From NCBI GenBank assembly GCA_028688225.1, contig JAQTYQ010000004.1, positions 1-64,000 on the forward strand: a stretch of DNA of 64,000 nt. Direction: 5' to 3'. Position numbers and translations under genes: made by a program. Shown here in pieces: positions 44,051-46,676 of this stretch. Numbering within the stretch: position 1 is the first letter of the stretch; each line of letters opens with the position of its first letter. This DNA comes from Opitutaceae bacterium (GTDB lineage Bacteria; Verrucomicrobiota; Verrucomicrobiia; Opitutales; Opitutaceae). Under the pieces are notes generated by a model that was given only the letters and a program-made list of their open reading frames with translations, did not search any database and was not told where the DNA came from.

Positions 44051-44129
44051 CCGGCCGGTGCTAGCAGCGTGTCGGACTTCGTCCTCCACGCTGCTAAACA
44101 AAATGGCTGCGCCATTTTGGCTGAGCCCG

Positions 44130-44628
44130 GAAGGGTCAAGTGATTTTCGGGTTTCTTGCTCGGCGGTGATCGCAGGCGTCCGTTTGCTTGATCCGGAGGC
44201 GATTGCCAACCCCGGGACTGCCCCCGCCGAGGGTTTCCGGCCGCTTTGCGCACTGCTCCGAGGGTGGGAAGCCGCCGGGGTCGGCGGCGCCGGCGGACCG
44301 GGCTGGTCCGGTGTTTTGCGGGCGCGCTCCTGCTGGGCCCGGGCCAAGGCACGCGCTTCGATCTCGGCGCGAGCCGATCGGGTCGTGATCGGGGTGCGGA
44401 TCGCCGCCGAGCAGCCGCCCCGCCACGTTCTCATCGGTCGTTGGTTCGATGCGCCGGCGCTCTGCTGGCCAGCAGAGTGTTCGCTCCCCGTGCCGCGGGT
44501 GTTCACTTCGACCTGCCGCAGATCGAGTTGCTCCACCGCATCGATCACGAAGTGCACGAGATGATCCGCGGGCACCCAGTCGCGCAAATCGGGCGGCAGC
44601 AGCAGCGGAGTCTCGCGGTTCACGGTCA
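44130..44628 (-). pseudogene. IS1182-family transposase remnant
   Basis: From the ATG at 44628 one frame reads NRETPLLLPPDLRDWVPADH then LVHFVIDAVEQLDLRQVEVN, the start of IS1182-type transposases. After GTGSEH the homology stops at a palindrome. It resumes in another frame with RRIEPTTDENVAGRLLGGDPHPDHD, equivalent to the later conserved block, and then a charged helix. A segment of about 20 residues is deleted between the blocks, and the catalytic part is missing. The gene cannot make a functional transposase. Confidence 0.85.
44460..44477. repeat. 18-bp perfect palindrome inside the IS remnant (copy 1)
   Basis: CTCTGCTGGCCAGCAGAG sits exactly where the transposase homology breaks off. The inner 16 bases recur at 44630-44645. 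Confidence 0.7.
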
Positions 44629-44646
44629 TTCTGCTGGCCAGCAGAA
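44629..44646. repeat. 18-bp perfect palindrome inside the IS remnant (copy 2)
   Basis: TTCTGCTGGCCAGCAGAA lies next to the transposase start codon. It shares its inner 16 bases with copy 1; the outer pair has changed from C-G to T-A in a compensatory way. Confidence 0.7.
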
Positions 44647-44734
44647 CGGGCGGGCATGCCTCTCTGACGCACCCCCTGCGCCAAAGTTCAAAACTTCCCC
44701 GCTGCATCGGAAGAAAACTCGCCGTTCTGCACCA

Positions 44735-44750
44735 AACGGCGGCCGCCGTT
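44735..44750. repeat. 16-bp perfect palindrome near the right IS end
   Basis: AACGGCGGCCGCCGTT lies four bases before the right terminal hairpin of the IS remnant. Role unknown. Confidence 0.5.
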
Positions 44751-44786
44751 GGTTTAGGAGCCTGGAGGGCGAAGCCCGACAGGCTC

Positions 44787-46676
44787 CTAGGCGACCCGGG
44801 CTGCCCGGGGCTGGGTGCACCAGTTGTGCCAGCAGGCGCGCAGCGCCGCTCCAAAGCGCGCCGCTTGTCCCGGATGGTCGAGCAGGGGGGAGCGCCGCAT
44901 CTCGTCGCGCAAGCCGGCGCGCAGCGCGGCCAGCCGCGGCCGGTCGGCGCCCAGGTGCGCGGCGATGCGGGTGTACTCGTCGGCCGTGGCGGCGATCCAT
45001 TCGGGATGTCCGACCGCGGTCAGCAGGCTGGCGCTGACGCGCGCCACGTGGCGGTCGCCGCGCAGCGTGACAACCGGCACGCCCATCCATAGCGCCTCGC
45101 AGGTGGTGGTGGTGCCGTGGTAGGGGAAGGTGTCGAGGGCGATGTCGATCCGGTGGTACACCGCCAGGTGGTCCCGGGTGTCGACCGTCCGCTCGAGGAG
45201 CTCGATGCGGCCGGCCGCCAAGCCGAGGGCCTGGAAGGGCGCGAGGTAATGCTCCCGGACCGCGGGATCGCCGAGACCGCGGCCTTTCAGGACGAGCCGC
45301 GAGTCGGGCGCCGCCTGCAGCACGCCGGCCCAAAGGCGCAGCGTCGTGGCGTTGATCTTGGCCAGGTTGTTGCAACAGCCGAAGGTCACGGGTGCGCCCG
45401 CGAGACAGGGCGGCGGATTCGGCTCGGGTGTGCCCGCCATCGGGAGGTAGGTCCAGGCGGTCGGCGCAAACCGCACGAGCTGTTCGGTGGCGAACCGGTC
45501 GGCATCGCCCACCGGGTCGGCGATGGCGTCGGTCAGGCGGTAATCCATGGCCGGGAGTCCGGTCGTATCGGGATAGCCCAGATAGGTGATCTGGACCGGC
45601 GCGAGACGGCGGGCGTAAAGCGGGAGACGACAGTTCATGCCGGTGTGACCGGCCAGATCGATCAGGATATCAGGCTGGTCTGCGCGGATGGTCCGTTCCA
45701 CGTCGGGATCGGGCTGGCCGATGAAATTCCGCCAGACGCCGGCCAGCCCGCGGAGGCGGGCGGAGATCGCGTCCTCGCGGATGTGGTCAAGGTAAAGCAG
45801 CAGTTCGAACTGCGTGCGGTCGAGGTGCTGCAGGAGCGGCTCGATGAAAAAGGCGCAGGAATGGGACCGCAGATCCGGCGAGAGGATGGCGACGCGCAGA
45901 CGGCGTCCGGACTCCGCCGGGTTGGGCAGGTCGGGCGCGGGCGGCGATCCGATGGCCCGGCCGAAAGCCACATGCTCGGCGAAGATCTGCTCCCGGGAGG
46001 GGCCGTCGAGATATTGCAGGGCGAACAGCCGGTAGCTGCGCGCCTGGTGATGATCCGGCTCGAGGTCGAGAAAGCGGCCGTATTCCTCGATCGCCTCGGC
46101 GATGCGGCTGCACTGCTGCAGCGCCTGCGCCCGGCCGAAACGCGCCAGGGCATACCCCGGATCCGCGGCCAGCGCCCGCTCGTGGCAGTGCAGCGCCTCC
46201 GCACTGTGGCCCATCAGGCTCAAGGTCAGGCCGTAGTTGTACCAGCTCAGGGCATGATCGGGCTTCAGGGCCACGGCCTGCTGGTGACATTCTAGCGCCT
46301 CGGGCAGGCGGTCCTGAGCCTTGAGACAGTAGGCAAGGTTGTCCCACGCCTCGGCGAAGTCAGGCTTCTTTTGCACGACGGTCCGCAGGTGTTTTTCCGC
46401 CTCGGGCAGGCTGCCGGCCGCGACGAGCGCCAGGCCCAGGCGCATCCGGCAGACGGCGGACCGGGGGTCCAGCCGCAAGGCGCGCGTGAGCAGATCCACC
46501 CCGTCCTGGGTGCGGCCTTGCTGGTAGGCGAGGGTGCCGGACAAGTGTAGCACATCGAAGTGCCGGGGGGCGGCGGCCCGGGCCTGCCGGTACAGGATCT
46601 CGGCTTCCGCCAGCCGGCCGGCCCGGTGATGGGTAACGGCCTGCTGGAGCAGCTGCTGGAGTTTCAGGGGAGACAT
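44787..46676 (-). CDS. TPR-containing O-GlcNAc transferase-like glycosyltransferase (GT41)
   Basis: The 629-residue product has about six N-terminal TPR units (residues 1-215) and a GT41 catalytic region like SPINDLY/OGT. Catalytic motifs include VAILSPDLRSHSCAFFIEPL, ILIDLAGHTGMNCRLPLYAR and RLAPVQITYLGYPDTTGLPA. The nucleotide-sugar site is FGCCNNLAKINATTLRLWA and the late signature is DTFPYHGTTTTCEALWMGVP. OGT-type enzymes glycosylate Ser/Thr of proteins, and bacterial ones beside flagellin genes modify flagellin. The stop codon falls in the right end of the IS remnant, so a few C-terminal residues may have been replaced. Confidence 0.95.
   Translation of the reverse strand: MSPLKLQQLLQQAVTHHRAGRLAEAEILYRQARAAAPRHFDVLHLSGTLAYQQGRTQDGVDLLTRALRLDPRSAVCRMRLGLALVAAGSLPEAEKHLRTVVQKKPDFAEAWDNLAYCLKAQDRLPEALECHQQAVALKPDHALSWYNYGLTLSLMGHSAEALHCHERALAADPGYALARFGRAQALQQCSRIAEAIEEYGRFLDLEPDHHQARSYRLFALQYLDGPSREQIFAEHVAFGRAIGSPPAPDLPNPAESGRRLRVAILSPDLRSHSCAFFIEPLLQHLDRTQFELLLYLDHIREDAISARLRGLAGVWRNFIGQPDPDVERTIRADQPDILIDLAGHTGMNCRLPLYARRLAPVQITYLGYPDTTGLPAMDYRLTDAIADPVGDADRFATEQLVRFAPTAWTYLPMAGTPEPNPPPCLAGAPVTFGCCNNLAKINATTLRLWAGVLQAAPDSRLVLKGRGLGDPAVREHYLAPFQALGLAAGRIELLERTVDTRDHLAVYHRIDIALDTFPYHGTTTTCEALWMGVPVVTLRGDRHVARVSASLLTAVGHPEWIAATADEYTRIAAHLGADRPRLAALRAGLRDEMRRSPLLDHPGQAARFGAALRACWHNWCTQPRAARVA

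Follow-up and report, generated by a model that had tools for sequence, protein, structure and literature searches.

A dead IS1182 element between converging genes

Within the 64,000-nt stretch of DNA, from an Opitutales-like bacterium, that we analysed (the window), two neighbouring genes converge on a 728-bp relic of an insertion sequence. The transposase of the relic is read from the minus strand and carries an internal deletion. The features of the locus are as follows.

44062..44789, minus strand: IS1182-family insertion sequence relic, 728 bp; own-genome copies are 86-94% identical to pieces of it
44061..44064, plus strand: C-TA-G junction at the type A end; the second junction, at the other end, is 44787-44790
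44062..44096, plus strand: outer hairpin of type A (transposase 3′ end), repeat TAGCAGCGTGTCGGACTT plus an inverted copy of its outer part
44099..44119, plus strand: inner hairpin of type A, CAAAATGGC-tgc-GCCATTTTG
44486..44620, minus strand: N-terminal transposase remnant (NF033551, 22.8 bits, E 3.6e-5)
44732..44752, minus strand: inner palindrome of type B, CCAACGGC-ggcc-GCCGTTTGG, with one T unpaired
44755..44789, minus strand: outer hairpin of type B (transposase 5′ end), TAGGAGCCTGTCGGGCTT followed by the reverse complement of its outer part
44787..44789, minus strand: TAG stop codon of the facing TPR-type gene, identical with the first three bases of hairpin B
44787-46676, minus strand: open reading frame of the facing TPR-type gene

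The two 35-nt ends read TAGCAGCGTGTCGGACTTCGTCCTCCACGCTGCTA (44062-44096, plus strand) and TAGGAGCCTGTCGGGCTTCGCCCTCCAGGCTCCTA (44755-44789, minus strand). They differ at exactly six positions, and the original prediction that these form three paired substitutions (4/32, 8/28 and 15/21) proved exact on direct reading. With DNA folding parameters both ends adopt a common stem of 10 bp, a 2x2 internal loop, 4 bp and a triloop, at a z of about -5 to -7 relative to shuffles. The window contains the core pattern of the ends twice, with 0.11 occurrences expected. In the whole genome it is found at 28 sites with at most two mismatches, compared with none for a reversed-pattern control, and a covariance model detects about 60 sites. 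Because each end type retains its own inner neighbour in the genome (aaCAAAATGGC... for A, aaCCAACGGCG... for B), the hairpins are parts of the element and not of its target, and derivation from the target was rejected. The type B inner palindrome has perfect forms, CAAACGGC/GCCGTTTG, in other copies.

A further palindrome, TCTGCTGGCCAGCAGA, occurs twice in the relic (44461-44476 and 44630-44645), 169 bp apart. Longer relics are also present in this genome, and one of them (L015, 1377 bp) has a single partial copy of this palindrome and lacks the intervening segment, as if it had been deleted between the repeats.

Intact relatives and distribution

A search for intact elements with the same ends and an IS1182 transposase, as the original prediction had proposed, was successful. 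Intact relatives that share these ends and encode a complete DDE transposase were found at G015:C193 and G005:C58; the intact element of genome G005 (L133:1506-3143) measures 1638 bp and encodes 454 aa, and that of G015 (L156:665-2286) measures 1622 bp and encodes 467 aa. The two transposases score 321 and 305 bits against NF033551, for which the cut-off is 270, and match Pfam DDE_Tnp_1 and DUF772. Residues D161, D337 and E418 (P0002 numbering), putatively catalytic as judged from sequence, are conserved in both proteins. As membership of IS1182 demands, the shared terminal inverted repeat is present at both ends beside the transposase. The named records that hold intact copies (L176 and L177) are of uncultured Verrucomicrobia/Opitutia origin. 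We identify the window relic as a dead member of the IS1182 family (DDE), from a sub-group with hairpin terminal inverted repeats.

The covariance model matched 9 of 57 relatives and 8 of the 384 genomes of the class. Because so few genomes match, some of them with tens of copies, the hairpin ends belong to a few genera, in which they are patchily distributed and high in copy number. An Rfam search gave no match at E values up to 1.

Construction of the hairpin ends

Most IS1182 relatives have an 18-nt terminal repeat, TAGCAGCCTGTCGGACTT, and no hairpin, and plain related ends read cTAGCAGCCTGTCGGACTT followed by unrelated sequence. In the hairpin group the outer 9-10 nt of the 18-nt repeat recur, inverted, directly after it. 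Because the reverse complement of the outer part adjoins the repeat, the 5′ arm corresponds to the ordinary terminal repeat, with the added copy forming the 3′ arm. The TGTCGG core is intact in the outer arm, whereas the 3′ arm usually has CCTCCA, CCACCA or CC-GCA in place of CCGACA. Since the 3′ arm usually breaks the core in this way, only one arm would be readable as an element end and able to act as one. Discussion of terminal repeats in DDE elements generally treats them as sites for protein binding. In this group those bases carry an additional, structural constraint, and the two demands visibly conflict in the core, which is kept in one arm and usually broken in the other.

Most ends of the hairpin group have a second, unrelated hairpin 0-5 nt further in. 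Its arms are CAAAATGGC/GCCATTTTG, CAAATGGC/GCCATTTG, CAAACGGC/GCCGTTTG, CCAACGGGC/GCCCGTTGG or CAAACAGGC/GCCTGTTTG, among other types. Inner stems of at least 7 bp are present at 101 of 170 ends, compared with 1 of 170 after shuffling, and many of the arms have changed together.

Some elements have a long-spaced hairpin at the transposase 5′ end, where the partner of the repeat is an inverted copy lying about 50 nt inward (L229:2866-2933, L232:2865-2932 and L182:2754-2827).

The fold is maintained in source lineages

We assessed covariation in three ways. Across 28 end types, 93.7% of outer-stem cells are paired, against 72% in shuffled and 26-48% in slid controls, although the types were hand-picked among folding ends and the 93.7% is biased upward. 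Two-sided changes, which are less affected by this choice, are seen in all nine outer pairs, and the covariation score, 0.60, compares with 0.20 after shuffling and no more than 0.12 after sliding. When 94 outer arms were joined in a minimum spanning tree, the short edges carried 11 two-sided changes where 3.6 are expected, together with 86 one-sided changes. Finally, in a family of 209-bp miniature elements (MITEs) shared by two sister species (G106 and G079), the variable end is TAGGAATC, TAGGAGTT or TAGGAGGC and the partner arm changes to match each variant, the 5′ stem positions 6-8 being ATC, GTT or GGC and the partner arm GAT, AAC or GCC; the opposite end is constant (TAGCAGCC). At one orthologous gene end both species have an element, and the arms differ by changes that are almost all paired. 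Loop sequences vary freely.

Taken together, the three tests clearly show that the fold is maintained in source lineages, whereas dead copies lose it. Relic copies decay regardless of pairing, mostly by unpaired changes. The outcome that had been named as speaking against a selected fold, unpaired differences as frequent as paired ones, is thus what single relics display, but their paired changes still exceed expectation.

That two drifted repeats came to differ at paired positions by chance might be entertained for the window, in which there are only three such changes. The 28 end types and the second covarying hairpin refute this origin, to which we give hardly any credence.

The main rival to selection is templated correction, in which extrusion or strand switching at the fork copies a mutation from one arm into the other. 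Such quasipalindrome mutation is an established mechanism for bacterial palindromes, and it would give the same paired changes as selection. It would explain their presence in live and dead copies alike, and it fits the near-perfect palindromes found at the G015 left end, at L115 of G011 and at the G106 left ends. However, it should also erase the mismatches that face the TGTCGG core (TC/TC, TC/AC or a bulge), which persist across lineages and copies; relic copies gain unpaired changes freely; and the inner hairpin, which does not derive from the repeat, is kept too. We regard templated correction as a serious but rather unlikely account. Selection for the folded form, as originally proposed, agrees with the maintenance seen between element lineages, but is not the sole reading of it.

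The MITEs of G106 and G079 (L331-L349, about 209 bp) are each bounded by two hairpin ends of IS1182 type, and their inner CAAAACCGCC motifs pair together across the element. Several lie exactly at stop codons, including some at operon junctions.

The hairpin trait on the transposase tree

On a tree of 24 transposases, at least three changes are needed to account for the hairpin trait, and a single origin, with all carriers as one clade, was rejected by the AU test (p 4e-4). One hairpin carrier, L131, is sister to L182, which has a long-spaced palindrome at one end, and another, L194, is in Kiritimatiellae. At least three transposase lineages thus carry the trait, although swapping of ends among elements that share a host could imitate independent gain.

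Insertion at C-TA-G and at stop codons

Immediately outside the terminal repeat there is a C in 157 of 177 flanks, and we saw no target duplication beyond TA. Comparison of G106 with G079 yielded two clean empty sites, both belonging to MITEs with the same ends as the window element, in which the target is the TA of a TAG stop codon and every base is retained (...CGC-TA-GCATG... before dxr, and ...AAG-TA-GCGCGATGG...). Two further sites in this comparison, L334 and L338, are ambiguous. For the window copy, congeners yielded no empty site, being too distantly related. Among genes that face an element end, 47 terminate in frame at the element's own TAG and 5 run out of frame, where 1:2 is expected (p 1e-17). 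By eye, several of the proteins ending there have what we take to be native C termini, such as YchF (...FRFNV), a TonB protein (...NFGSH), an ECF sigma factor (...RETANV), CoaBC and a PP2C phosphatase. Insertion is thus precise at C-TA-G, with TA on both sides, and very often falls within TAG stop codons.

CTAG is a rare tetramer in the genome, and a good part of its occurrences are in stop codons: the window has 17 against about 192 expected from base composition, and 6 of the 17 are stop codons. The choice of C-TA-G together with tolerance explains the landing at stop codons, and special targeting is unnecessary. Because insertion is at C^TA^G and so often at stop codons, the hairpin of the element starts at the end of a gene.

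At two loci, hairpin ends stand head to tail and share a CTAG (L137:1988-2021 and L174:1383-1416), as if one element had landed in the CTA that forms the inner base of a second element's hairpin.

Possible roles of the hairpin

The best fit to these observations, with about an even chance of being correct, is that the hairpin insulates the element at the RNA level, supplies a substitute 3′ structure for the host mRNA, or both. The transposase would bind an ordinary double-stranded repeat, as in its hairpin-less sisters; since these use the same repeat, it need not see a hairpin. The hairpin itself would work in RNA. Because it begins at the stop codon, the transcript of the facing gene carries it at its 3′ end, and transcripts entering from a gene whose stop codon adjoins the element would fold at once and meet one or two hairpins before the transposase gene. 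The fold may insulate that gene, give the host mRNA a new 3′ structure replacing the displaced one, or both, and landing at a stop codon would then cost the host little.

Pairing is better near than away from stop codons, but this advantage vanishes when repeat decay is matched, so selection by the host is not seen. A wobble test for RNA against DNA, in which one-sided changes yielded G-U and A-C at 14:8, was not significant.

The original prediction had offered two other functions. The first is recognition of a hairpin at the ends, which we considered as a hairpin or cruciform seen by the transposase. The end hairpins covary, and IS1272, a member of the IS1182 family, targets stem-loops, for which structure-dependent transposition with action on cruciforms has been proposed (PMC5678879, PMC4923244). 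However, close sister elements share an identical terminal repeat but lack the hairpin, insertion takes place exactly at C-TA-G with no loss of a target stem-loop, and an element may have a hairpin at one end only or one with a long spacer (L182). Recognition of the hairpin is therefore improbable.

The second is that the ends are transcription barriers, in the strict form bidirectional intrinsic terminators carried to stop codons. The position of the hairpins directly after stop codons, the A-tract and T-tract that often form the inner arms (CAAAATGGC...GCCATTTTG) and the convergence of the window neighbours on the element would all suit this idea. However, we found no canonical intrinsic terminator (a GC stem followed by a T-tract) at the end hairpins: no run of five Ts follows the stems, and the inner stem is weak and short. 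One terminator candidate overlaps the type B inner palindrome, in a region with 13 candidates found against 9.4 expected. Related MITEs also lie between apparently co-transcribed genes, upstream of dxr and in a transporter pair, and because termination within an operon would be harmful, these insertions count against a strong terminator. A barrier to transcription of some kind is possible, but as intrinsic terminators the hairpins are poor candidates, and we think that reading improbable too.

Returning to a role in RNA, a broader version is that the repeats of several lineages are doubly used, as a double-stranded transposase site in DNA and as a double hairpin starting at the stop codon in RNA, and that this dual use was gained independently, making a portable 3′ untranslated region or insulator and insertion nearly harmless. 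We put this forward tentatively, as a possibility of less than even likelihood. Hairpin ends combined with C-TA-G targeting offer a testable case of an element evolving toward host tolerance.

Relation to known systems

With the IS1182 family as defined by NF033551, the elements share a DDE transposase with DUF772, a length of about 1.6 kb, the repeat TAGCAGCCTGTCGGACTT and no duplication beyond TA. Plain members from Verrucomicrobiota and Proteobacteria differ in having neither an inverted copy beside the repeat nor a second hairpin.

A link of the family to gene ends and structure is already known. IS1272/TnSha1 of staphylococci is associated with gene ends, terminators and secondary structure, and inserts into stem-loops, many of them terminators, which it replaces without target duplication (PMC5678879, PMC4923244). 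IS1272 replaces the stem-loop of its target and has no sequence preference, whereas here the element's own ends carry the structure and C-TA-G is the precise insertion site. For MITEs with the same ends as the window element, replacement of this type was not seen, the two clean empty sites in G079 having lost no base. In the open-access papers that we searched, there was no report of hairpins formed from an element's own terminal repeats.

IS200/IS605 elements also have hairpins near both ends, but these are subterminal, there is no terminal inverted repeat, and an HUH transposase acts on single strands. Membership of that group was rejected, as the present elements encode a DDE transposase and no Y1 HUH enzyme.

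REPs and REPINs are likewise short elements with two inverted hairpins, many near gene ends, and the MITEs and solo hairpins described here are similar. REPs belong to RAYT (Y1) transposases, whereas the present hairpins are IS1182 terminal repeats and their source elements encode DDE transposases. Solitary, REP-like outer hairpins with neither a partner end nor an inner hairpin are present at L117:2920-2953 and at other loci of G011.
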